A DNA stretch of 41,466 bases, taken from positions 1-41,466 of the forward strand of contig CALXSJ010000026.1 of the NCBI GenBank assembly GCA_944391115.1, given 5' to 3'. Within the stretch, counting starts at the first letter, position 1; each line of letters starts with the position of its first letter. Below the pieces are notes generated by a model. It had not been told where the DNA came from. It searched no databases and was given only the letters and a program-made list of their open reading frames with translations. Made by a program: the position numbers and the translations under genes. Of the stretch, positions 2,990-41,298 are shown piece by piece. This DNA comes from an uncultured Victivallales bacterium (GTDB lineage: Bacteria; Verrucomicrobiota; Lentisphaeria; Victivallales; UBA1829).

Positions 2990-3024
2990 GTTCTCCTTGT
3001 GGTAACAATTAATGTATGCTCGCA

Positions 3025-3097
3025 GCAGGACTGAGAGTCCTGCACGAAGCTATTCTGGCGATGCAAAGCATCGCGATGTCAACCTGATTTTTTGAAT
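3025..3097 (-). repeat. Partial copy (B) of the 150-bp structured repeat
   Basis: This holds the first half of the repeat unit described at 3096-3245, in tandem with it and in the same orientation. It keeps the AAAAAATCAGG start, the hairpin GCGATGCTTTGCATCGC and the hairpin GCAGGACTCTCAGTCCTGC, then stops about 35 bases before the esterase start codon. The shared half is nearly identical to copy A, so the tandem duplication is recent. Confidence 0.85.
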
Positions 3098-3245
3098 GAA
3101 TTACCGCGATGCAAGCATATGCGGTATCGGGAGTTTCGCCTCCGGCGACCAGCTTGCGCAGCTGGACCGCGGCAGGACTGAAAGTCCTGCACGAAGCTAT
3201 TCTGGCGATGCAAAGCATCGCGATATCAACCCATTTTTTCAATAA
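3096..3245 (-). repeat. Full copy (A) of a 150-bp structured repeat
   Basis: Read on the minus strand the unit runs from TTATTGAAAAAAT to GCGGTAATTCAT. It is a chain of hairpins: GCGATGC-TTT-GCATCGC, GCAGGACT-TTC-AGTCCTGC, CCAGCT-GCGCA-AGCTGG, GGAG-GCGAAA-CTCC and a terminal TACCGC/GCGGTA stem. A diverged copy lies at 37229-37380 on the other strand. It is not a gene: a short open frame across the tandem copies only repeats the same peptide twice. It lies between a possible promoter at 3251-3278 and the esterase start, so it would be transcribed as leader RNA. Confidence 0.9.
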
Positions 3246-3250
3246 TAAGG

Positions 3251-25543: not shown

Positions 25544-27009
25544 ACAATCTGCATTCTCTCACGCTCCGGCAGGCCGCCGAACTGCTTGCCGATGGCAGCA
25601 TCACTTCCTCAAAGCTCTGCGACGCGTATCTTGCCCGGATCGCGGAAGTCGAACCGGCCGTTCAGGCGCTGCTCTCGCTCAATGCAGACGCAGTGCGCTC
25701 TCAGGCGGAGGCATCCGACAAACGCCGCGCCGCGGGGAAGGCGCTGGGGCCGTTCGACGGCATTCCGGTCACACTCAAGGACAACATCGCGGCAAAGGGA
25801 TATCCCTGCACCTGCGCGTCCAGGATTCTCAAGGGATTTGTCTCCCCGTATGACGCAACGGTCACATGCAAACTCAAAAACGCGGGGTTCGTCCTGATGG
25901 GACGCGCCAACATGGACGAATTTGCAATGGGGTCCTCCTGCGAAAACAGCGCCTATCAGAAAACGAAAAATCCGCGCAACCATGACTGCGTTCCAGGCGG
26001 ATCAAGCGGCGGATCGGCCGCCGCCGTGGCCGCCGATGAAACCGTGATCGCGCTCGGTTCCGACACCGGCGGCTCAATCCGCCAGCCCGCGGCGTTCTGC
26101 GGCATCGTCGGAGTCAAACCGACCTATGGACGTGTTTCGCGTTACGGCCTTGTCGCCTTCGCCTCCTCGCTGGACCAGATCGGCCCGATGAGCAAAAGCG
26201 TCTACGACGCGGCGGCAATGCTCGACGTAATCTGCGGAATCGACCCGAAGGACACGACCAGCCTTCCCGCGCCGGCGCCGGAGGGCGGATTTGCAAAGGA
26301 TCTCGAAGACTTTGAAAAAGCGCCTTCGCTCAAGGGCCTCCGCATCGGCGTGCCGAAGGAGTATTTTGAGGTGGAAGGCATTTCCGGCGGCGTCAGAAAA
26401 GTCTGCGCGGAGGCAAAGGAAACGCTGCGCCGTCTCGGCGCGGAATTCGTGGACATCAGTCTGCCTCATACAAAATACGCGATGGCCTGCTATTACATCA
26501 TCGCGCCCGCGGAGGCCAGCGCGAATCTTGCGCGCTTCGACGGCATCCGCTACGGCTACCGCAGTCCGAACGCGACGGATCTGATCTCCACCTATCTGGA
26601 TTCCCGAGGAGAAGGGTTTGGCCCCGAAGTGACGCGCCGCATCATGCTCGGCACCTATGTGCTCAGCAGCGGCTACTACGACGCGTATTACGTCCGCGCC
26701 CAGAAGGTCCGCACGCTGATCCGGAAAGACTTCACGGAAGCGTTCCGCTCCTGCGACGTGATCTTCACGCCCGTCACCCCGGCGACCGCATTCCGCTTCG
26801 GGGAGAAATCCGATCCGATGCAGATGTATCTCTCGGACGTTTTCACGACGGCGCTGAACCTTGCCGGAACCTGCGGCATCAGCGTCCCCGCGGGAACGGA
26901 TGAAACGACAAAGATGCCCGTCGGCATCCAGCTGATCGCACCCGACCTTGCGGAAGCCCGAATGTTCCGCACCGCCCGCGCCTTCGAGCTGGAGCGGGAT
27001 AAGGTCTGA
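25540..27009 (+). CDS. gatA: Asp/Glu-tRNA amidotransferase subunit A
   Basis: A 489-aa glutamine amidase subunit. It releases ammonia from glutamine and passes it to GatB. The Ser-cisSer-Lys triad is complete: Lys80 (TLKDN), Ser155 (GGSSGGS) and Ser179 (DTGGSIRQP), each one residue beyond the Staphylococcus aureus numbering. Full length for the family. GAGGAGAG before the ATG lies inside gatC. It is the last gene of the PFK-gatC-gatA operon. A GC hairpin follows the stop. Confidence 0.97.
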   Translation: MNNLHSLTLRQAAELLADGSITSSKLCDAYLARIAEVEPAVQALLSLNADAVRSQAEASDKRRAAGKALGPFDGIPVTLKDNIAAKGYPCTCASRILKGFVSPYDATVTCKLKNAGFVLMGRANMDEFAMGSSCENSAYQKTKNPRNHDCVPGGSSGGSAAAVAADETVIALGSDTGGSIRQPAAFCGIVGVKPTYGRVSRYGLVAFASSLDQIGPMSKSVYDAAAMLDVICGIDPKDTTSLPAPAPEGGFAKDLEDFEKAPSLKGLRIGVPKEYFEVEGISGGVRKVCAEAKETLRRLGAEFVDISLPHTKYAMACYYIIAPAEASANLARFDGIRYGYRSPNATDLISTYLDSRGEGFGPEVTRRIMLGTYVLSSGYYDAYYVRAQKVRTLIRKDFTEAFRSCDVIFTPVTPATAFRFGEKSDPMQMYLSDVFTTALNLAGTCGISVPAGTDETTKMPVGIQLIAPDLAEARMFRTARAFELERDKV

Positions 27010-27065
27010 GAAAAGAGGACGCCTCTTCCTGCCTTCTCCGGAAAGCCGGTTCGCAAAACTAAAAT

Positions 27066-27096
27066 CGGGAATCCCCGCCCGCCGCGGGGATTCCCG
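27066..27096 (+). terminator. Hairpin after gatA
   Basis: CGGGAATCCCCGC (27066-27078) pairs perfectly with GCGGGGATTCCCG (27084-27096). There is no T run, so it may act as a weak terminator or as a 3'-end protecting hairpin. It lies 30 bases before the next start codon. Confidence 0.55.
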
Positions 27097-27125
27097 GTCA
27101 TCAGCTCAGCAAAAGGAAACGCCAG

Positions 27126-28127
27126 ATGAAACGGATCGCAATCGCGGGATGTGCGCATATCCACACTCCCAATTTCGTAAAAATCCTGAAAGCGCGGGAG
27201 GACGTGACCGTCACCGGCGTCTGGGATCATGACGCAAGGCGCGCGCGGGAAAATGCGGAACTTCTGAACACGAAACGCTATGATTCCGACGCGGAAATCT
27301 GGGACGATCCCGCCATTGACGCCGTCGTCATCTGCTCCGAGACGAACCGCCACCGGGAGCTGGTGCTCCGCGCCGCAAAAACAATGAAACACATCTTTGT
27401 CGAAAAACCGCTCGGATTCGCCGGCCGGGACGCGCTGGAAATGGCCGCGGCGATCGAAAAAGCAGGCATCCTGTTCCAGACCGGTTATTTCATGCGCGGC
27501 AATCCCGTGCATCTTTTTCTGAAACAGCAGATTGAAGCCGGCGTATTCGGCGTCATCACACGCATCCGCCACTCCAACTGTCACTGCGGCTCCCTCGGCG
27601 GCTGGTTCGACACACAGTGGCGCTGGATGGCCGATCCGGCAATTGCCGGATGCGGCGCATTCGGGGATCTCGGAACGCACTCCCTTGACATTCTGATGTG
27701 GTTTCTCGGCGTTCCGGAGCGGGTCGCAGCCGATATCCGGACGGTCACAGGCCGCTACGGAGCGGACTGCGACGAATCCGGAGAAGGACTGCTTCATTTC
27801 CCAGGCGGCACGATCGGAACGCTCGCGGGCGGCTGGGTCGATCTGGCCAATCCGGTCACGTGCGAAATCAGCGGCACGGAAGGGCATGCCGTCGTCGTCA
27901 ACGGACAGCTCTATTTCAAGAGCAACCACGTGACGGGCGCAGACGGCAAGGAGCCGTGGACGGCGCTTCCCTCCGAGTGGCCGCACGCGTTCGTTCTTTT
28001 TCTCGACGCGCTCGCGGGGAAAAAAGTCAAGCTTGTTTCCGCACGGGAGGCGGCGCTCCGCAGCGTCGTCATGGAAACGCTCTACCGGGCGGCAAAACAT
28101 ACGAGGTGGGAGACGATTGCATTTTAA
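27126..28127 (+). CDS. Gfo/Idh/MocA-family oxidoreductase
   Basis: A 333-aa dehydrogenase-like protein. The nucleotide-binding N-terminus reads AIAGCAHIHT in place of the usual GxGxxG. VEKPLGF (92-98) is the family lysine motif and GAFGDLGTHSLDILMWFLG (about 179-197) the substrate-domain motif. AAAGGAA upstream fixes the start. This GCAHIHTPNF-type N-terminus is a recognised sub-group among glycan-degrading bacteria; the substrate is not known to me. It follows gatA on the same strand after a hairpin, and the next gene starts 73 bases downstream. Confidence 0.85.
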   Translation: MKRIAIAGCAHIHTPNFVKILKAREDVTVTGVWDHDARRARENAELLNTKRYDSDAEIWDDPAIDAVVICSETNRHRELVLRAAKTMKHIFVEKPLGFAGRDALEMAAAIEKAGILFQTGYFMRGNPVHLFLKQQIEAGVFGVITRIRHSNCHCGSLGGWFDTQWRWMADPAIAGCGAFGDLGTHSLDILMWFLGVPERVAADIRTVTGRYGADCDESGEGLLHFPGGTIGTLAGGWVDLANPVTCEISGTEGHAVVVNGQLYFKSNHVTGADGKEPWTALPSEWPHAFVLFLDALAGKKVKLVSAREAALRSVVMETLYRAAKHTRWETIAF

Positions 28128-28200
28128 GCGCGAATCCCTGCGCAGAGGAGGGCCGTACTCTGTTCTGCGAGTCGTTTTCAGAATGAATCCGGAGGTATTT

Positions 28201-29304
28201 ATGAAGCACATGATGTTTGCACTGATCGCCGCGGCGGCAGCCGCGCTCCCGCTGAACGGAATCGAAGCGGATCAGCCGATGCCGGCCATCGACGCGGCAA
28301 AATGGTATACCGCTCCCGCCGCAATCCCGGCAAAAGGACTGGCGGCTGTCGTTCTGCTTGATATCGCCTCGGATGACGCGGTCAATACGCTCCGCATGCT
28401 GGAAAATCTCAGTGCGGAGCTGCCGGATGTCCGGTTTGCCGCCATCGCCATCAATCCGGTCAAAACCACCGACGCGGTCGTCCGGGACAACGGACCTTTC
28501 CAGATTCCCCTTGCAGCGGACAACAATCTGAAAAGCCGGAATCTGTTCGCGGAAACCGAATCACTCTTCCCCTATGCGGTGCTCGCCCGGGACGGCAAGG
28601 CGGCGTGGTCCGGACATCCGACGGAACTCGAATCCGTCATCAGAAAAGTCGCCGACGGCTCCTTCTCCATTTCCAGGCAGAAACGGATCGAGGCCATCCG
28701 TCAGGAGCTTCAGATGGCAATTCAGGCAGGTCTTCCGGAAGTCGTCTCCGCCTCCGCGGACAAAATCCTCCGGATCGCTCCGGACGACCGGATTGCGATT
28801 CAGGCAAAGCTCTTCGCCTTCAACGCCAGAGGAAAAATGGCGGATGCCGTTAAATTCATTCAGGAAATCTGTGAAAAAAATCCGAAGGACGCCAAGCTGC
28901 GCATGATGCAGCTGGACCTTCTTTTAAACCGGGGAGACACCTCCGCCTACCGCCAGGCCGTGGAGAAGGCGTTCCGCGATTTCGAGACGTCGCCGGACAA
29001 CAGTCTGGTCTTCCTGTGCGCCTACGCGCTGGAGAACTCCCCCTACGGCGTGCTCAACCCGGCCGTCACGCTCAGCTGCGCGGGGAAAGCATATGACAAG
29101 GTGAAAAATCTGAAAACACCGCTTGCCGCCGTCGCGCATGAAACTCTTGCTAGAATCCATGCTGAAACGGGAAATCCGGAAAAAGCCGTCGCACTCCAGG
29201 AAGCGGCGCTGGCCATCCGGAAAGGAACCCATCTGGAACAGGCTGCGGCAAACCGTCTCCGCTACTACAAGGAACTGACGGCCATGAAATCCGGGGCAAA
29301 ATAA
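28201..29304 (+). CDS. Secreted thioredoxin-fold protein with helical (TPR-like) repeats
   Basis: A 367-aa protein. Residues 1-23 are a signal peptide (MFALIAAAAAALPLNGIEA). Residues about 30-150 resemble the TlpA/thioredoxin fold (AVVLLDIASDDAVNTLRMLENL, then FPYAVLARDGKAAWSGHP) but have no CxxC, so no redox activity is expected. Residues about 160-350 are paired helices in TPR style (ILRIAPDDRIAIQAKLFAFNARGKMADAV, ending IHAETGNPEKAVALQEAA). GGAGG five bases before the ATG at 28201 fixes the start; the open frame extends upstream into the previous gene but is not credible. Its role is unknown; it is probably a periplasmic protein-protein interaction module. Confidence 0.75.
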   Translation: MKHMMFALIAAAAAALPLNGIEADQPMPAIDAAKWYTAPAAIPAKGLAAVVLLDIASDDAVNTLRMLENLSAELPDVRFAAIAINPVKTTDAVVRDNGPFQIPLAADNNLKSRNLFAETESLFPYAVLARDGKAAWSGHPTELESVIRKVADGSFSISRQKRIEAIRQELQMAIQAGLPEVVSASADKILRIAPDDRIAIQAKLFAFNARGKMADAVKFIQEICEKNPKDAKLRMMQLDLLLNRGDTSAYRQAVEKAFRDFETSPDNSLVFLCAYALENSPYGVLNPAVTLSCAGKAYDKVKNLKTPLAAVAHETLARIHAETGNPEKAVALQEAALAIRKGTHLEQAAANRLRYYKELTAMKSGAK

Positions 29305-29375
29305 CCGCCATTGCGCGGCACCGCTTTTCCGCATGCTCTTCGGGAATGATTCCCGCGGCAAAAAAATTTTCAAAA

Positions 29376-29393
29376 AATTAGTTAAGACTAATT
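29376..29393. promoter_or_regulatory. Operator-like palindrome 1 of the flavodoxin operon
   Basis: AATTAG-TTAAGA-CTAATT: perfect arms that extend to 7 bp (AATTAGT/ACTAATT). It lies just upstream of the predicted promoter. The same AATTAG-N6-CTAATT pattern recurs at 29472-29489. Geometry and the TTAG...CTAA core resemble sites of DtxR/MntR-type metal repressors (inference). Confidence 0.65.
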
Positions 29394-29415
29394 GAAATAT
29401 TCATTTCCCCTGCTA

Positions 29416-29424
29416 TGGTATACT
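29416..29424 (+). promoter_or_regulatory. Extended -10 promoter of the flavodoxin operon
   Basis: TGG-TATACT gives an extended -10 (TGn plus TATACT). No good -35 stands 17 bases upstream, which is usual for extended -10 promoters. Transcription would begin near 29431, between the two operators. Confidence 0.6.
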
Positions 29425-29427
29425 TTC

Positions 29428-29462
29428 AAAACGGGGAGCAACAGTGACTCCGTTTTTATTTT
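29428..29462 (+). other. Leader hairpin followed by a T-rich tract
   Basis: AAAACGGGGAG and CTCCGTTTT form a stem with one bulged G and a 9-base loop, followed by TATTTT. It falls at the predicted transcript 5' end. It may be an early terminator, or a 5' stabilising stem. Confidence 0.45.
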
Positions 29463-29471
29463 CGCAGCAGA

Positions 29472-29489
29472 AATTAGATTTAACTAATT
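29472..29489. promoter_or_regulatory. Operator-like palindrome 2 of the flavodoxin operon
   Basis: AATTAG-ATTTAA-CTAATT, extended to AAATTAG/CTAATTT. It is the same 18-base pattern as the site at 29376-29393, and lies 96 bases away, 18 bases before the start codon at 29508. Confidence 0.65.
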
Positions 29490-29507
29490 TTTATATGGAA
29501 ATCATCT

Positions 29508-30128
29508 ATGTCATGTGAATCTCACAAGAAGGATCTTCTCCGTTTTCTGATGGTCAAAACGGCGGCAGTCCGGGCGGGAGTCAAACCGGGCGCTCTGCTG
29601 CGTGTCCAGCGGTGCTACCGGATGTCCGGCGCAACGCAGAAGGATACAATCTGTCTTCATCAGCAGGAAATTCTTGCAGAATTGAAGCTCGCCTTCAGAA
29701 TCCTGAAAAAAGGGCCGGAAAGCGCGCTGGTGCTCTTTTATGCACCTCATCCTCTTGCGAACACTCTGCGCGCCGGACCGAACAGAATCTACCTGAAACA
29801 ATACGGTTATCCGGAAACCGGCGGAATCAGCCTTTATCTGGACGCTCTCGAAAGACGCTGTGGCGCGATGGCATTCCCGCACGAAGTCGGACTTTTCATC
29901 GGGTATCCGCTGAAGGATGTGGCGGGTTTCATGGAAAAGGCGCCGCGGACGCCGGTTGACCGCGGGGACTGGCAGGTATTCGGAGATCCCCGGGAATCAC
30001 TCCGCCTGATGCACCTTTACCGCTGCGCGGAGCGTCTCGCGGAAAAAATCATCGAAAGTTGTCAGAATATGGAAACGTGTCTTGAAAAAATCGCCAATAT
30101 CAACCTTCCTCAAACAGCAAGGAGTTAA
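29508..30128 (+). CDS. DUF3793 family protein
   Basis: A 206-aa protein matching DUF3793, a family seen mostly in anaerobes next to flavodoxin and iron-transport genes. Visible features are a GVKPGALLRV stretch near 24-33, ALVLFYAPHPLANTL near 73-87 and HEVGLFIGYPLKDVAGFM near 125-142, with conserved Cys and His in C(x)12MAFPHE-like spacing. No signal peptide or membrane segment is present. Biochemical function is unknown. It heads an operon with flavodoxin (six bases downstream), DUF2325 and a small PH-like protein, behind two matched palindromes. An iron- or metal-limitation role is likely by association. Confidence 0.8.
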   Translation: MSCESHKKDLLRFLMVKTAAVRAGVKPGALLRVQRCYRMSGATQKDTICLHQQEILAELKLAFRILKKGPESALVLFYAPHPLANTLRAGPNRIYLKQYGYPETGGISLYLDALERRCGAMAFPHEVGLFIGYPLKDVAGFMEKAPRTPVDRGDWQVFGDPRESLRLMHLYRCAERLAEKIIESCQNMETCLEKIANINLPQTARS

Positions 30129-30134
30129 AACAAA

Positions 30135-30629
30135 ATGGCAAACGTCAAAGTGATTTACGGCAGCAGCACCGGCAGCACGGAAAGCGCGGCGGCGCTCATC
30201 GCCGCCGCATTCGGAACGGAGGCAGTCAGCATCGCCAATGCAAGTGCGGAGGATTTTGAAGCGGATCTTCTGATTCTCGGAAGTTCGACATGGGGGCTCG
30301 GAGAACTTCAGGACGACTGGATCTCCGGCATCGCCATGCTGGACGGCCTGGACCTGACCGGACGGAAAGTCGCGGTCTTCGGGCTTGGCGACCAGAACGG
30401 CTTCCCCGATACATTTGCGGACGCAATGGGCATCCTCGCGGAAAAAGCGGAGGAACGCGGCGCGGCAATCATCGGGGAAACCTCATCGGCAGGCTATGCG
30501 CACAGTATCTCCGCAGCGGAAAAAGACGGGCACTTCCGCGGTCTGGCGCTGGATGACAACAATGAACCGGAAAAAACACCCGGCCGTATCGGAAGATGGG
30601 TGGAACAGCTGAAGGCCGCACTTGCCTGA
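30135..30629 (+). CDS. Long-chain flavodoxin
   Basis: A 164-aa FMN electron carrier that can replace ferredoxin when iron is scarce. The FMN phosphate loop is GSSTGSTES (9-17). The isoalloxazine-stacking loop is SSTWGLGELQDDW (about 54-66), with Trp57. GLGDQNGFPDTFADA (about 88-102) holds the Tyr/Asp-type second loop. The insertion in the last strand marks the long-chain type. AAGGAG nine bases before the ATG fixes the start. Its operon context (DUF3793 upstream, DUF2325 downstream, palindromes at the promoter) supports metal-dependent control. Confidence 0.95.
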   Translation: MANVKVIYGSSTGSTESAAALIAAAFGTEAVSIANASAEDFEADLLILGSSTWGLGELQDDWISGIAMLDGLDLTGRKVAVFGLGDQNGFPDTFADAMGILAEKAEERGAAIIGETSSAGYAHSISAAEKDGHFRGLALDDNNEPEKTPGRIGRWVEQLKAALA

Positions 30630-30709
30630 GCAGATAACGTTCCGGCCGGACGCGGAAGGACGCTGTCCGGCATTCTCCAGAGCGGAAGAAAGGGAAAAAG
30701 GAGATTTTC

Positions 30710-31156
30710 ATGAGCAGAAAAAAAAGACTCAACAGAAACCGGACCGCCTGCCCGTGCGCATGCACCGCGGAAGAGATGTCAGGATGCTGCACGCTCCAGC
30801 ATCTGAAAGTGGCGCTGATCGGCGGCCTGGACCGTCTGGAAAATCAGTATCGCTCGGTATTCGAATCGCTGGGCACGATGAAATTTTATTTTCATACCGG
30901 CTGCTGCAGCGGATCGGGCGCAAACCGTCTGCGCGCCTCCGCGCAGGATGCGGACATTGTGGTATTCATCACACGGGTCAACAGTCATAATGCGCTGAAC
31001 GTCATCAAGGGAATCTGCAGGAAAAGCGGAAAATCTTTCCTTGCATTGCGGGAAACCAATCCGGCGCTCGTCTCGAAAATTGTCACGCAGACATGGCACA
31101 GCAGGAAAATGCGCGGACCGCGGCCTGCACCGGTTGTCAAGGACAGCCTTCCATGA
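30710..31156 (+). CDS. DUF2325 small cysteine-rich protein
   Basis: A 148-aa protein. Residues about 31-130 match DUF2325: HLKVALIGGLDRLENQY, then FHTGCC, ADIVVFITRVNSHNALNVIK and KSFLALRETNP. The family has a Rossmann-like fold and unknown biochemistry, and often accompanies DUF3793 and flavodoxin. The N-terminus adds a cysteine cluster (Cys14, 16, 18, 26, 27) which, with Cys65, 66 and 103, could bind metal (inference). AAAAAGGAG precedes the start. The last eight codons lie in a segment that is duplicated at about 37.2 kb. Confidence 0.82.
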   Translation: MSRKKRLNRNRTACPCACTAEEMSGCCTLQHLKVALIGGLDRLENQYRSVFESLGTMKFYFHTGCCSGSGANRLRASAQDADIVVFITRVNSHNALNVIKGICRKSGKSFLALRETNPALVSKIVTQTWHSRKMRGPRPAPVVKDSLP

Positions 31157-31395
31157 GGGTTATGTTTCCGCTTGCAATCGGGAAACAAGGGGATATAGTA
31201 ATCCAGAAACTTTTATCCCACTCTTTCAGTAACAGGTTGTCCAACCGGACAGGAGGCGCATCATGCACACGTTCCGCGGCGGAATTCGAATCGGGAACTC
31301 ATCCTGGGATGCAATCAATTACACCTGGCCTTTTGCAAATGCCGCTTTCACCGAGGATGCACTCCGGTTTTCAATCGACTTCTTTTTTCTGAAAA
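31133..31395 (+). repeat. Parent copy of a duplicated segment
   Basis: From the last codons of the DUF2325 gene through the first 43 codons of the small PH-like gene, this sequence aligns to 37203-37608. Shared blocks include AGGTTGTCCAA, GGAGGCGCATCATGCA-like start-site DNA and GCGGCGGAATTCGAATCGGG. The other copy carries a 148-base insertion near its left end. Confidence 0.85.
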
Positions 31396-31577
31396 CCACC
31401 TGCATCCTTCCCTATCATGATATAAGTTGCGTATCTTCGGAAAAAGGATTTTTCCTGCAGGGGATACGGATCCGGCATCACTCGGATCTCATGCCGGAAT
31501 TCCTTCTTTTCTGGACGGGAAAACATCACTCGTTCCTGGAGGAATGCAGGAATCATTCCATCCCGGTCACGGCCTGA
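31263..31577 (+). CDS. Small PH-like domain protein (tentative)
   Basis: A 104-aa protein. From about residue 30 it reads like a bacterial PH-like fold: ALRFSIDFFFLKTTCILPYHDISCV, then GIRIRHHSDLMPEFLLFW and an ending helix HHSFLEECRNHSIPV. No signal peptide. AGGAGG six bases before the ATG is one of the strongest ribosome binding sites in the window and supports a real gene. It lies 106 bases after DUF2325 on the same strand and could be the fourth gene of that operon. A broken duplicate lies at 37482-37608. Function is unknown. Confidence 0.7.
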   Translation: MHTFRGGIRIGNSSWDAINYTWPFANAAFTEDALRFSIDFFFLKTTCILPYHDISCVSSEKGFFLQGIRIRHHSDLMPEFLLFWTGKHHSFLEECRNHSIPVTA

Positions 31578-33066: not shown

Positions 33067-33816
33067 ATGCGAAAGATTTTACGGATTCAGAAGAATGCTG
33101 AATTTACTTTGATAGAACTTCTTGTCGTTATTTCAATCATCGCAATATTGGCTTCCCTGCTGCTTCCCGCACTCAACAAGGCGAAAATGCGAGCGAAAAG
33201 CGTCATTTGTATCAACCAGCAGAAACAACTCGGATTCTGTTTTGAGTCTTACTCATCCGACTATGACAACTATTTCCCCTGCCGGAATCAGTACAGAGAC
33301 TCCAATGCAGACAACGGAATTTCATGGGTAACAGCGCTGATGCCATACAGCAGCTCGAAAAAAATCGTTTACGGGATCAACAATCAGCTTCCCGCGGGAA
33401 GCATCTTTATCTGCCCTCTCGTCGAGAAGCTGGCAATCAGCAGCGCCGTTTACGGGCTCAATACAAAATTATTCGGAGAGGACCAGAAAACCGGCGTCAA
33501 CCCGTTCCGATGCAAAGTGTCAAGTATCCGGGGACCATCCAAATCCTTTGTCATTGTCGATTCATGGTTTAACAAGAACACCCTTGAAAACCGCCGGAAA
33601 GGAAGATACACTGCGGAAGAACCGGAATTCATCTGCTACCGTCATTCACGAAAGGCAAACGGTTTGTTTGTTGACGGACATGTTTCAAGTGATGGTCCGG
33701 AACTCTACAACCTTCCGCCCTATGACTACAGCTATTATCCTTTCAACGCAAATAACAGTGGCAAGGGGAATCGGAACGGTGCCGTTTGGCTGTACGGTTT
33801 CTGGCCGTATGATTGA
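33067..33816 (+). CDS. Prepilin-type N-terminal cleavage protein (Lentisphaerota pseudopilin)
   Basis: A 249-aa protein with the type IV pilin / type II secretion pseudopilin leader. FTLIELLVVISIIAILASLL starts at residue 13, with Glu18 as the conserved +5 glutamate after cleavage, then LPALNKAKMRAKSVICINQQKQLG. The -1 residue is Glu12, not the usual Gly; relaxed -1 residues are common in this phylum. A C-terminal YRHSRKANGLFVDGHV motif is the usual H-x-G-x-x-N-xx-F-x-DGH-like ending of these proteins. Such pseudopilins are massively expanded in Victivallis-like genomes. GAGGAGGG precedes the ATG. The hydrolase follows 111 bases downstream, so it may help display or export that enzyme (inference). 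Confidence 0.9.
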   Translation: MRKILRIQKNAEFTLIELLVVISIIAILASLLLPALNKAKMRAKSVICINQQKQLGFCFESYSSDYDNYFPCRNQYRDSNADNGISWVTALMPYSSSKKIVYGINNQLPAGSIFICPLVEKLAISSAVYGLNTKLFGEDQKTGVNPFRCKVSSIRGPSKSFVIVDSWFNKNTLENRRKGRYTAEEPEFICYRHSRKANGLFVDGHVSSDGPELYNLPPYDYSYYPFNANNSGKGNRNGAVWLYGFWPYD

Positions 33817-36990: not shown

Positions 36991-37202
36991 AAAACGGATT
37001 GCGTTTCCCCCTCAAGAGCTGAAGAAAAGTGCCGTCATGCATTCCTGACAGACGCACATTGCATCGGCTTATTGCCTTGCTATATTTCCAGAAAAAGCAG
37101 TTCCATCCCCCCTTGTCCGGGGGGATGGGAAATGGAAACAGCTTGAAAAGAAGCATTGAAACCGGACATTCGAAAGAAAAAAAGCCTGTGTAACACCTCA
37201 GT
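36991..37202. other. Intergenic region with a strong GC hairpin
   Basis: CCATCCCCCC (37103-37112) pairs perfectly with GGGGGGATGG (37119-37128) across TTGTCC. No T run follows on the plus strand. It may be the 3' end of the hydrolase transcript, or a structured repeat. No gene seen. Confidence 0.5.
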
Positions 37203-37232
37203 TTGTCAAGGGCGGCATCACATAAGGGTTAT
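37203..37232 (+). repeat. Left part of the decayed duplicate (DUF2325 tail)
   Basis: TTGTCAAGG...AGGGTTAT aligns at roughly 80 percent with 31133-31162, the last codons of the DUF2325 gene plus the following bases, and keeps a stop codon in the same place (TAA for TGA). The alignment breaks at GGGTTAT, where the structured repeat begins, and resumes at 37381. Confidence 0.7.
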
Positions 37233-37380
37233 TGAAAAAATCAGGTCGACAGTGCGATGCTTTGCGTCGCCAAAATAACTGCGTGCACTCAGCGACTCCA
37301 GCTCCGGTCCAGCGGAACAAGCTGGCAGCCGGAAGCGAAATTCCCGATACGAGCGCATGCCCTGCACCGAGGCGCTTCAT
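37229..37380 (+). repeat. Diverged copy (C) of the 150-bp structured repeat
   Basis: Runs from TTATTGAAAAAATCAGG to GGCGCTTCAT and aligns end to end with copy A (3096-3245, opposite strand). Differences preserve pairing: GGAG/CTCC becomes GGAA/TTCC with the same GCGAAA loop, the terminal TACCGC/GCGGTA becomes AGCGC/GCGCT, and GCGATGC/GCGTCGC needs one wobble. The second hairpin (GCAGGACT) is lost. It interrupts the duplicated DUF2325/PH-like segment. Confidence 0.85.
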
Positions 37381-37730
37381 TTTCCCGCCTGCAAACGAAA
37401 AACAGGTGGATACAGCAATCCGGAAGCTTTTATCCTTGTCTCTCAATCACAGGTTGTCCAATCCGGACAAGAGGCGCATCATGCATAAGCTTCGCGGCGG
37501 AATTCGAATCGGGCGTTCATTCCGGAAGGCAATCAATTATTCCCGGCCTTTTGCCAGAGCTGTTTTGCCGGGAATGCACTCCGGCATTCAATCTGCGTCT
37601 TTCTTCTGATGGAAAGAAAGGATTTGTTCCAAAAAATGAAGTATTTTCCTTTCAAAAAAATGCCGTATCCAATTTTGAGGTTTCATTCAATCATTTGCGT
37701 TTGACCAGCAGGAAGAAACATTTCACAAAA
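37381..37730 (+). pseudogene. Broken duplicate of the small PH-like gene
   Basis: 37381-37608 aligns with 31163-31395, including the ribosome binding region and the ATG (37482; MHKLRGGIRIGRS against MHTFRGGIRIGNS). Near 37567 one base is missing relative to the intact gene. The first frame stops at 37608, while homology continues in another frame (NALRHSICVFLL against DALRFSIDFFFL). Downstream of about 37615 similarity fades. It is not expected to make a functional product. Confidence 0.75.
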
Positions 37731-37950
37731 GCCGAAAAGGGTGAAAAAGTGAAATGTTTTGAAAGAAAATTTCACAGAAAACGGTGGATGAATGAAAAAT
37801 GACAACTCAGTGTTCCGCCCGCCTCTTTAAGCCGGGTGCAATAAAACGACAGGGGAAATTACGAAGACAACTTTTCCCAATCAGGCCCGGTATTAACCGA
37901 CGGACAGGCAGCTGGTTACAAGTCGCCATTCATCGATCTCCGGTAAAACA

Positions 37951-37989: not shown

Positions 37990-38067
37990 TTTACTTCTTT
38001 TCAGGGGGAAAAGAAGTAAATGGCGGACCACGCGAATTTTTGCACCCTTCACTCTGACCGCCATTTT
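37990..38067. repeat. Nested perfect inverted repeats
   Basis: TTTACTTCTTTTC (37990-38002) and GAAAAGAAGTAAA (38008-38020) form a 13-bp stem with a 5-base loop. Directly after it AAATGGCGG (38018-38026) pairs with CCGCCATTT about 30 bases downstream (to about 38067). No gene lies here. It may be a transcription stop for both sides, or the remnant of an element end. Confidence 0.6.
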
Positions 38068-38155
38068 TGAGCTTGAAAACTCATAATTTTGATTTTGAAA
38101 TGCGTTTAAACACGCTTCAATTTCTCATGTCAATTTTCAGAATGGCTGGGAGGTT

Positions 38156-38935
38156 TTAAAATTCAAACATTTCAGAGTCTAAAAACTCCTTCGGCAGCGT
38201 ATGACTTTTCGCTTGATCCAAAAGCATTTTTCTGCTCTTCTCCGGGAGTATGGCCGCCTTGTCAAGGTATATTCTTCTTATGGAAAATTGCGCCGGAAGT
38301 TCGATATAGCCATCATAAAATACCCAAAAGTCTGATGTGACCTTGGCGGTATCTGCATGAAGCCATCTCTTCACATTGCGAAAACGCCAGCCTATTTTAG
38401 CCGGGAAACGGGCAATTACCTGCCAGTCAACAATGCCGTCGGCAGGCTCAAGGTCAATGATCCAGCGTTTTCTTTCTGCAGGGAGGTTCGGGGCAATAGC
38501 AGACAAATCTTCGGGAGTAAAATTTTTCAAATTCCAGGAATACCGATCCCCCGTGTCAGCCGGAAGTTTTTGACAGAGAATTGGAATATTTCCCGTTTTT
38601 GTAATTGAGACACAGTCTGGATCTGCAAGCAGATTGGTAATATCTCCGCCAATAACCTTAAAATGAATAAAGCGCGGTTTCGGACCGCAGCCGTAACGGA
38701 TAGATCTATTCAATTTAAATATGCCGTCCGGCGGCAGTTTCTTAAATTCGACATTGACATAATTGGCTTTTTGAGAGCAGACATCGGCATAAACATCTTC
38801 CGCTGAAAGATGATTTTCCTTTGCCAAAGATTTTTCCATTCCATTGTCACGTTGCGGAAAAAATGAAGCAAGCGGCGGTTTGCATGAGCAAAGAATGATC
38901 GAACATAAGAGTAACAGTATTGTTTTCAAATCCAT
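38156..38935 (-). CDS. Putative lipoprotein of unknown function
   Basis: A 259-aa protein. Residues 1-18 form a lipoprotein signal (hydrophobic ILLLLCSIILCSC, lipobox L-C-S-Cys18), so it is predicted to be anchored in an envelope membrane. The body has no motif I recognise. It contains DWQVIARFPAKIGWRFRNVKRW near 185-206 and a C-terminal helix KSRKMLLDQAKSH. The start at 38935 is chosen for the signal and a GAGGAAAGG upstream; an ATG at 38983 would bury the signal. It is the third gene of a minus-strand operon, overlapping the upstream gene by 10 bases. Base composition is AT-rich compared with the rest of the window, suggesting different ancestry. Confidence 0.7.
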   Translation of the reverse strand: MDLKTILLLLCSIILCSCKPPLASFFPQRDNGMEKSLAKENHLSAEDVYADVCSQKANYVNVEFKKLPPDGIFKLNRSIRYGCGPKPRFIHFKVIGGDITNLLADPDCVSITKTGNIPILCQKLPADTGDRYSWNLKNFTPEDLSAIAPNLPAERKRWIIDLEPADGIVDWQVIARFPAKIGWRFRNVKRWLHADTAKVTSDFWVFYDGYIELPAQFSIRRIYLDKAAILPEKSRKMLLDQAKSHTLPKEFLDSEMFEF

Positions 38936-40095
38936 AATAACGGACCTTTCCTCAACTCGAAGGAATATTCTGGCTTTTTCCAAAATTCATACCAGCGGGG
39001 ACGCACAAACATCAAAACGCCGGTATCGTGTTGTTCGTCAATGGTAAACAGCTCCTCAAAATCCATTCCGCCGCCTGTGATTTTCAAACGGTGTTTTCCG
39101 GGAGGAAGCAGAGTTGGGAAGCTGTACAAGGTGTGCTGAAGCATCTTTCGATCCGACTGGATTTTGCTTTTTGTAACAGGAATCCCGTCAATTTCTACGG
39201 TCAGTTCGGGGGCATCGCCCCGGATCATGCTCTGATTCGTGATCACCAGATGAAACGTTCCGCCCAAGGCATTCCGGATTTTCGATCGGAGCGTTTGATC
39301 CGCATCTTCAAACTTTTCATAATAAAACATATTGCGATCGGAAATACAATGAAACATGCCGTGAAAATAGGAACGGGATCCAGTTGACGGTGTAATCTCA
39401 ATGGAAAACTTTCCCGGTACTTCATAAATACGCGACAACCAAGTCTCCCCCGGTCGGTCTTTCAACGGCAGATCCCCGGCTGCCGCTTTCAGCCGTTCCT
39501 GCAAACGGAACAGAGATTCCTCGTAATGGTTTGTCTGCTCGGGGACAATGTTCAAGATGGATTCTTCCGGTTGTTTCCGGGAGAGAATGACATATTTTCC
39601 GCGCACACTGGTGCAATTGATAAAGAGAGTCCGGAATGCCGATGTTTCCAGTTCGTTCCAACAGGGCAGAAACAGGTATTCCCGGCACCTCTGTGTGCCG
39701 CCGAAACTGCGGGCATCCAATTGCGCTCTTACGAGCAGAACATATTTCCCCGGATAGGAAACATGAGTGCACAGATACAGAAGTTCATCTCCGCAGTGTT
39801 CCTTTTGCAGTGCCTGTTTCTCCAGCAGACTGCAGGATAATTTCCAATGCCGCCCGTCGGTAAGATTCCGCGTCTCATTCGTCCCTAAAAGCAGTTTTTC
39901 TCCATAACGGAGCAACGTCTTTTTTTCTCCGTCCGCCCAAAAGCGGACTCCGGAATCCGGCAGTATGATCGTCAGTTGTCCGTCCTGCCAGTCGAGAGCG
40001 TGGAAGAATCCGGACGGATCAATACCGGAGTCTCCGGCAAAAGCCATATTCAATACGAAAAGACCGGGAAAAATCAAGAAGCAGAGTTTTTTCAT
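38926..40095 (-). CDS. Exported protein of unknown function (beta-rich)
   Basis: A 389-aa protein. Signal peptide 1-20 (KKLCFLIFPGLFVLNMAFA). The body is probably beta-rich. Near the C-terminus LLPPGKHRLKITGGG (about 335-349) resembles the PEGA-type or surface-layer beta motif, followed by the aromatic stretch RPRWYEFWKKPEYSFEL. I do not recognise the family. The start is the ATG at 40095, sharing ATGA with the stop of the upstream gene. The end overlaps the lipoprotein start. Tight coupling in all three genes suggests the products form one complex or pathway in the envelope. Confidence 0.7.
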   Translation of the reverse strand: MKKLCFLIFPGLFVLNMAFAGDSGIDPSGFFHALDWQDGQLTIILPDSGVRFWADGEKKTLLRYGEKLLLGTNETRNLTDGRHWKLSCSLLEKQALQKEHCGDELLYLCTHVSYPGKYVLLVRAQLDARSFGGTQRCREYLFLPCWNELETSAFRTLFINCTSVRGKYVILSRKQPEESILNIVPEQTNHYEESLFRLQERLKAAAGDLPLKDRPGETWLSRIYEVPGKFSIEITPSTGSRSYFHGMFHCISDRNMFYYEKFEDADQTLRSKIRNALGGTFHLVITNQSMIRGDAPELTVEIDGIPVTKSKIQSDRKMLQHTLYSFPTLLPPGKHRLKITGGGMDFEELFTIDEQHDTGVLMFVRPRWYEFWKKPEYSFELRKGPLLWI

Positions 40096-41186
40096 GATGT
40101 TGTTGCCTGTTTTGCAGAAATCGTTTTCATTTCTTTTTCCAGAATTGTCCGGCAATGCTTGTATAATCTTCCATTGAAACAGCGCCATTGCAGAAGCTGT
40201 TCCCGGTAAGGCAGATCCAGATATTCCTCTTCCGTGTAAAAAGGACAATCGAATCCGGAAGCATAAGTAAAAGGAATACATGAGGGGCACGGCGGAGGAA
40301 GGGGCGGAAGTTTTTCCGGATAGGTGAGTTTGACAAATATATCCAGCTTTTTCTTTTCATGCAGAGTCTTGAAAAACGGTTCCGGATTCTGTATTGTCAA
40401 AGCCAACATGACCGCATTCAGCGGAGTAGGCTTGCGTTCAAATTCGGCAAGAAAAAATTCAGCGTAAGCTGCACATCCCGAAGTATCGCGGAATACATCT
40501 GTATAAAAATGTTTCGGCAGAACATCCGGATAGCGGTTGCGTTCCCATTCCATCAACCGCAAATGCCTGGTGTCAGGTAATTTTTCGCCGCCGTTCAGAT
40601 ACCCGGTCAATTCTTTACGAAATTCTTCAGCATGAAATTTCACGTAGGAATCCTGCAGAAAAAGATCGACAGATTTATCATTTTTTTCACGGATCAACCG
40701 GATGGTCTCCGCATAAATTCTCTGCGCTTCTTCTTTTGACGGATTGCACTGGTCCAGCACTACTTGTATAAGGTCTGATACCCAATATACCGGAGATGTC
40801 CGCGAAACACAGCGGTCACGCAAAATATACCAGTCCCATTTCCAGAATTTCCAGCCATGAGAGTGACGTTCAATATCCCACCATTCAAAAGAATAGCCTT
40901 TTCGAGTTAACAGAACAATGACCGGCTCCGGATAGGAAAGCTGATATTTTTCATATTGCCGCTTGACCTGATATGCCTTTTCATTCTGTTTCCGCCAAAT
41001 CAATTCATTGGATTTACCGTCCCGTTTTTCCGTAAAAGATTCACCTGTGGCAAAGTCAAAATATGTATCAAGCCAATAGTCAATTTCCAGAGTTTTTAAT
41101 CCCTCCGCCACGATTTTGACAGGCTCTATTGGGAATACTGTAATTGCCAAAAATATGAAAAAGAATACCAATAGCAGTTTTTTCAT
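40092..41186 (-). CDS. Exported protein of unknown function (cysteine motif at C-terminus)
   Basis: A 364-aa protein. Residues 1-19 are a signal peptide or membrane anchor (KLLLVFFFIFLAITVFP). Aromatic-rich HSHGWKFWKWDWYIL lies near 110-124. The C-terminal 80 residues hold PPPCPSCIPF, a CxxC pair, and further cysteines (FDCPFY, QWRCFNG, YKHC), which suggests disulfides or metal binding. No family recognised. The start at 41186 is chosen for the signal peptide; ATG at 41201 and 41261 are alternatives and none has a good ribosome binding site. It heads the three-gene AT-rich operon. Confidence 0.68.
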   Translation of the reverse strand: MKKLLLVFFFIFLAITVFPIEPVKIVAEGLKTLEIDYWLDTYFDFATGESFTEKRDGKSNELIWRKQNEKAYQVKRQYEKYQLSYPEPVIVLLTRKGYSFEWWDIERHSHGWKFWKWDWYILRDRCVSRTSPVYWVSDLIQVVLDQCNPSKEEAQRIYAETIRLIREKNDKSVDLFLQDSYVKFHAEEFRKELTGYLNGGEKLPDTRHLRLMEWERNRYPDVLPKHFYTDVFRDTSGCAAYAEFFLAEFERKPTPLNAVMLALTIQNPEPFFKTLHEKKKLDIFVKLTYPEKLPPLPPPCPSCIPFTYASGFDCPFYTEEEYLDLPYREQLLQWRCFNGRLYKHCRTILEKEMKTISAKQATTS

Positions 41187-41298
41187 AAAAAGTTCTTTCA
41201 TATCTGAAATTTTGGAAACGATCATACAGAATAATATATTATTTTTCATTTGGAAAAGCAAGCATGTATATTGTCGGAATAGAAAAGGAGATGTGTAT

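Follow-up and report, generated by a model that had tools for sequence, protein, structure and literature searches.

The non-coding 148-base repeat that interrupts one of two paralogous segments near position 37 kb of the window, by which we mean the whole 41,466-nucleotide stretch of DNA analysed here, from an uncultured gut-type bacterium, is, on comparative sequence evidence, a truly mobile element. It is very probably a non-autonomous transposable element that follows the single-strand, peel-and-paste route of IS200/IS605, with a Y1/HUH-type transposase acting in trans as the candidate enzyme type, and its five-letter target appears to be chosen by base-pairing with a short guide carried inside the element.

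When these 148 nt (37233-37380) are left out, 31120-31400 and 37190-37610 align through the junction. At 31 kb the sequence reads AGGG-TTAT and then GTTTCCGCTTGC; at 37 kb it reads AGGG-TTAT (TTAT at 37229-37232), 148 additional nt and then TTTCCCGCCTGC, resuming at 37381, and the interruption begins immediately 3' of AGGGTTAT. The 5' arm is a 28-nt alignment (TTGTCAAGG...AGGGTT) with a score of 26, a value reached by 0 of 2000 shuffles (maximum 22), the 3' arm keeps 78-81% identity across 83 + 104 nt, and both paralogous stretches surround a small reading frame. The initial annotation had placed the repeat exactly at a break in a duplicated segment, and this is borne out by the continuity of the alignment once the 148 bases are removed and by a 5' arm beyond chance; that the 148 bases are the repeat likewise stands, with the same family present at 3021-3247 on the minus strand and across the bacterium's own genome. 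What did not survive is the idea that a target duplication has decayed into the flanking TTAT and TCAT: the former is the target itself, and TTCAT (37376-37380) belongs to the element as its right end. The 37-kb site fits the family rule described below, with (G)TTAT (37228-37232), the element and then base 37381, and on this reading one of the two paralogous segments received the element on the 3' side of its (G)TTAT (Table 1).

Table 1. Features of the 148-nt repeat and of related copies; coordinates are those of the window unless a locus is named.
Feature	Position	Strand	Remark
Full second family copy, type B right end	3095..3247	-	orthologous place in G001 without element
Third family copy, truncated	3021..3094	-	head-to-tail with the 3095..3247 copy, one TTCAT common to both
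Empty paralogous segment	31133..31395	+	empty target TTAT 31160-31163
Element-holding paralogous segment	37203..37608	+	104-aa reading frame, shorter than 31263-31577
Target pentamer GTTAT, form xTNAT, N = T	37228..37232	+	in left flank; empty paralogue 31159-31163
Mobile 148-nt element with a right end of type A	37233..37380	+	ends fit the insertion rule
Putative left guide GACA	37248..37251	+	first base 37248 (G) = guide base opposite target N
Left subterminal palindrome GCGATGC-TTT-GCGTCGC	37254..37270	+	helix 1
Right subterminal palindrome CCCGAT...ACCGAGG	37343..37372	+	helix 5; weak in the 37-kb copy
Element-borne right end TTCAT	37376..37380	+	
Tandem middle hairpins	L048 1407-1698; L220 1324-1568		

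The family to which this copy belongs is large. Searching the bacterium's own genome (G000, 3.66 Mb in 44 contigs) with the 37-kb copy as DNA query yielded 40 matches at E<=0.001, and a family covariance model built from 41 copies gave at least 84 copies there (all 84 scored candidates), 80 in G001, the closest genome, at least 84 in G003, 11 in G002 and 8 in G024. Four more genomes contained 1 to 15 weak matches each, and the model found no match in 27 of the 36 genomes searched from the taxonomic family. An exact core pattern matched 18 stretches in GTDB genomes, 15 of them in the MAG 'uncultured Victivallales bacterium BRZ_N__bin192' and 3 in 'uncultured Lentisphaeria bacterium SI.B33'; an exact core pattern, used as a test of phage carriage, matched nothing in viral_contigs. 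Rfam had no match within the window, no protein family was found inside the 148-nt element (37233-37380), and a keyword search of the open-access literature, which was not exhaustive, returned no description of the repeat family or of naturally segregating guide alleles. Two types of right end occur, type A (..CACCGGGGCGG-TTCAT) and type B (..GCATCGCGGTAA-TTTAT or -TTCAT). Some copies are joined to further hairpins (L015, L027), and composite copies (L015 1501-1900; L024 1501-1730; L027) have added hairpin modules after or within the element (GATTTCGTGCTTCGCACG.., AAGGGCCGGAAGGCCCTTG, GAAAAATGC..GCATTTTTC). In another genus (G019 and its relatives) the middle hairpins of the element are found by themselves, in tandem, with a period of ~78-85 nt.

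Sequence comparison of empty and filled sites shows a simple rule: an empty site reads TTNAT|flank and a filled one TTNAT|element...TTYAT|flank. By this rule the insertion point lies directly 3' of TTNAT, the pentamer is not duplicated and the right pentamer TTYAT is part of the element. The comparisons also show, as a statistical rule, that the target base N is complementary to a guide base, which lies six positions ahead of the foot of the first hairpin (GCGATGC), the alleles A, G and C of this base occurring with T, C and G targets. The first test of this guide gave 27/50 complementary copies against 19.6 expected (p=0.0045, the best among 20 positions), and p=0.056 once the copies that had prompted the idea were removed. 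For the validation copies, whose raw sequences were viewed before the statistic was taken, position and pairing were already fixed: 25 of 30 were complementary against 12.6 expected (p<=5e-5; 25/29 without the ambiguous copy L253) and position -6 alone stood out among 20, the five exceptions to the left rule including L246 (guide G, TTGAT) and L252 (guide A, TTCAT). Over all 98 left ends that remain when 7 of 105 are left out for want of a readable target, 63 were complementary against 38.2 expected, and with one representative per distinct left end and target base the figure was 42/77 against 29.2 (p=3.5e-4). Older copies with guide C often lie at T targets (11 T, 7 G, 2 C), and the 37-kb copy itself sets guide G opposite target T, a wobble and no strict match.

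The strongest comparison involves 32 left ends that are identical over AAAAAATTTAGGTT[A/G]ATACCGCGATGC, two others being left out as too short at locus starts. With guide A, 17 of 18 lie at TTTAT and the remaining one at TTCAT; with guide G, TTCAT precedes 11 of 14, TTTAT two and TTGAT one (Fisher p=4.8e-6; 7.6e-6 without one probable orthologue). The guide C allele before ATACAGCG is preceded by TTGAT in 5/5 copies (G003, G002). A corresponding guide at the right end was complementary in 54/83 copies overall, and in 33/60 distinct ends against 29.7 expected (p=0.12), a small number of rows (L016, L026, L045) having had their final pentamer misread by the parser; after clones were collapsed it did not reach significance on its own.

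The right end has consequences of its own. Because TTYAT is ATRAA on the opposite strand, about 45% of the countable copies lie on the stop codon of a neighbouring gene: the right-end TRA is such a stop in 39/87 non-array copies, with 11/87 and 19/87 in the other two frames, when only open frames of 60 or more codons that end exactly at TRA are counted and the 22 array copies of 109 are left out. Among high-scoring, mostly recent copies the count is 14/26, with 3 and 6 in the other frames. Judged from these frames, many insertions land on stop codons and the element's right end restores the stop, a simple reason why such insertions would be tolerated. The right end also resembles the target, and a new copy can for this reason land exactly behind a resident one, giving head-to-tail arrays with one common pentamer, of which we count 13 distinct junctions. 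At locus L250, G001 has a single older copy with a CTCAT end and G000 has a recent copy right behind the end of the older copy (TTCAT): arrays extend through insertion at the right end of the resident copy.

A known repeat that invites comparison is bcr1 of the Bacillus cereus group, for which, to our knowledge, no guide rule is known. In the part of PMC6542083 on which we draw, bcr1 is described as a small repeat with tens of copies, TTTAT motifs and mobile-element features; its host belongs to a different phylum, and the likeness is one of description. Site-specific recombination of a circular form has been suggested there for the bcr repeats (PMC6542083, same part), and a circular form of our repeat that a serine or tyrosine recombinase joined to TTYAT sites would suit both the TTTAT-like pentamers that flank the element and the head-to-tail arrays with one common pentamer. 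However, such a recombinase leaves without reason the complementarity of the target base with a base ~18 nt inside the element, and the left guide rule is also true of TTGAT targets with TTCAT right ends (L183, L208, L223); we consider this alternative very improbable.

The evidence for movement comes from relatives. Three congeneric genomes served to locate the flanks of the G000 copies, and four to locate those of the G001 and G003 copies; G001 identity at the compared places is 82-98%, and 90-97% at most of them. At L248 the filled site in G000 reads GCTTCAT|TTCAAAAAAATTTAGG...GGTAATTTAT|TCGAATTC, the element starting with TTCAAA and ending with TTTAT, and the empty site in G001 reads GCTTCAT|TCGAATTC; G003 is empty as well. 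L253, L242, L239 and L014 are cleanly empty in G001, the corresponding gap at L242 being occupied in G003 by a different hairpin array; L002 also lacks the element in G001, though its junction is less exact. The element is absent from G001, with junctions that are not clean, at L244 and L251 and at L017, L020, L024, L028 and L008. Four loci (L012, L006, L013, L016) hold the element in G000 and G001 alike, which makes the family old as well as recently active. G003 copies compared with G000 and G001 gave no clean junctions, the flanks being too diverged. These orthologous empty sites support movement far more strongly than the two paralogous segments alone, and it is chiefly through them that the earlier claim of an element that moved, with the 37-kb segment as the filled site, can be upheld.

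The paralogue pair by itself gives no polarity, and TnpA-type excision, according to the portion of PMC5934647 cited, likewise regenerates an exact empty site; the 31-kb segment might accordingly have lost the repeat by precise deletion, with no insertion at 37 kb. Three loci speak against this, L003 and L243 (both empty in G001, G002 and G003) and L236 (CGTTTAT|; empty in G001 and G003): G000 alone is filled and two or three relatives are empty, from which it follows that insertion does happen in G000. The family rule also accounts for the 37-kb junction without any deletion, and loss at 31 kb seems to us very improbable. At this place synteny with G001 ends at 31009, ahead of the 31-kb segment; G001 is 92-93% identical over 26513-31009, the break lies inside a DUF2325 gene and unrelated genes follow in G001, and the sole other homologue of the small gene (G003:C169) is in a different context; within this range of comparison no intact segment turned up that carries the repeat at the equivalent position, the case which the initial annotation had named as a refutation.

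Recent insertions with an empty TTCAT|flank are filled as TTCAT|element...TTTAT|flank. Of 68 near-full copies, 39 allow both pentamers to be read; the 5' and 3' pentamers carry the same variable base in 19 of these, against 16.8 expected if the two are independent, which excludes target duplication as a general rule. That the repeat is a classical MITE, mobilised by a DDE transposase that duplicates TTTATT/TTCATT at the target site, is very improbable: TTTATTC stands at either end at L014 and single in the empty site, and TTCATT at both ends at L003, where a duplication looked attractive, but that candidate was ruled out by the independence of the two bases and by the TTCAT sites ending in TTTAT, the visible element ends form no inverted repeats, and the target base goes with a base inside the element. 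Of the features of TIR-type MITEs, neither terminal inverted repeats nor a target-site duplication was found in the element.

The IS200/IS605-like route that we favour would proceed as follows. A Y1/HUH-type transposase acting in trans would recognise the hairpins of the non-autonomous 148-base element and move it, with a single-stranded circle as the probable intermediate; guide and target would pair DNA to DNA at insertion, and the element would enter directly 3' of TTNAT, leaving its own TTYAT at the right. In the sections of PMC5934647 used here, IS608 inserts 3' of TTAC, which is kept in the left flank, pairs A+16 with T-3 and A+17 with T-4, and is retargeted by engineered guide changes; in our repeat N at -3 would likewise be the partner of the guide base, and the A that follows the guide base stands opposite T at -4. 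The likeness to IS200/IS605 comprises: (i) insertion 3' of a fixed short motif that is kept in the left flank; (ii) no duplication and no terminal inverted repeats; and (iii) subterminal palindromes, the left one preceded on its 5' side by a guide whose bases pair, in a statistical sense, with the motif. In contrast to IS608 and IS200/IS605, (i) the 148-nt element has neither tnpA nor tnpB, and its cognate transposase was not found; (ii) 2 nt separate its guide from the foot of the hairpin; and (iii) it forms a family with three natural guide alleles and three targets. Near-identical copies, one guide base apart and at matching targets, would be the natural counterpart of engineered IS608 retargeting, and the family supplies a collection of guide alleles, of sites both empty and filled and, at L250, an array in the course of growth.

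Two further groups of repeats invite comparison. The PATEs, ends-only, palindrome-associated derivatives of IS200/IS605, are in the extract of PMC7290912 consulted likewise short and non-coding, with palindromic ends and presumed mobilisation in trans; by comparison with what is described there, our repeat is without a found parent with the same ends, and has high copy number and natural retargeting. REP/BIME sequences, as the cited parts of PMC6006769 and PMC8266576 present them, also have many dispersed, intergenic palindromic copies and a guide 5' of the hairpin, whereas our repeat has no GTAG motif and is a larger composite element, and a TnpA-REP gene (REP transposase) was found at E<=1 in 0/4 genomes of the genus.

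The Y1_Tnp profile detected only remnants in the drafts of G000 and G001 and nothing in that of G003; G002 has one intact gene (IS200-type TnpA, L160) and one remnant. Origin as a deletion derivative of this local IS200 was rejected, the L160 TnpA and the remnants having other flanks and no element match below E=0.08. Patterns for the left and right ends brought to light no longer, enzyme-bearing version in G000, where the exact matches either pair with the customary spacing or fall at the ends of contigs, and a Y1 TnpA element with the same ends was not seen in the draft genomes; several contigs of G000 and G003 terminate within the element. As no cognate transposase or parent was found, we say of the repeat that it apparently works like IS200/IS605 and do not file it as a member. 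The cognate transposase may have been lost or may be missing from the drafts; alternatively, a mobile replicon may supply it, or it may belong to a type that goes unrecognised. As a tentative possibility, an HUH enzyme missed by present Y1/REP-transposase profiles could move it, single-base guide mutations retargeting it (A to TTTAT, G to TTCAT, C to TTGAT) and the right end both restoring stop codons and offering the next landing site.

The palindromes near both ends are conserved (83% of cells paired) with weak covariation: the left one (helix 1) has 96.8% of cells paired and little covariation, and the right one (helix 5) 81.5%. Folding of the 37-kb copy is no better than that of shuffles (z=-0.08), and in view of this and of the weak covariation structure was dropped as main evidence. 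A second palindrome (alignment A1, columns 62-81) has a pairing form, GCAGGACT..AGTCCTGC, and a non-pairing form, GCTCTCC..AGTCCTGC, each present in about half of the copies.

Other repeats and elements lie in the window. A ~90-nt repeat at 31171-31260 (CTTGCAATCGG..TATAGT..GTTGTCCAA..GGAGGCGCA) recurs in several places in G000-G003, and its TTGCAA-N16-TATAGT looks, from the letters, like a promoter. The repeat overlaps the end of a frame that we take to be an IS3-type transposase at L033, L035 and L037, stands ahead of an apparent carbohydrate kinase gene at L036, and lies downstream of the small gene, not upstream, at G003:C169. A ~128-nt repeat at 37688-37815 is also present in G002 (C22, C25, C52), G001:C14 and G000:C20. 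The stretch at 38011-41214 is 94% identical to G002:C9, other stretches common to G002 being ~73% identical, and 38007-38966 is 97% identical to G000:C7:155428-156385; by its sequence, 38011-41214 resembles an element that has moved recently and now neighbours the repeat. An 80-nt stretch at the contig end (41386-41466), which recurs in many places in the genus, is probably the end of an IS that broke the assembly, and 33100-33235, which lies where a weak DUF1559-like gene begins and has matches at dozens of places in the genus, is presumably a repeated N-terminal coding segment.
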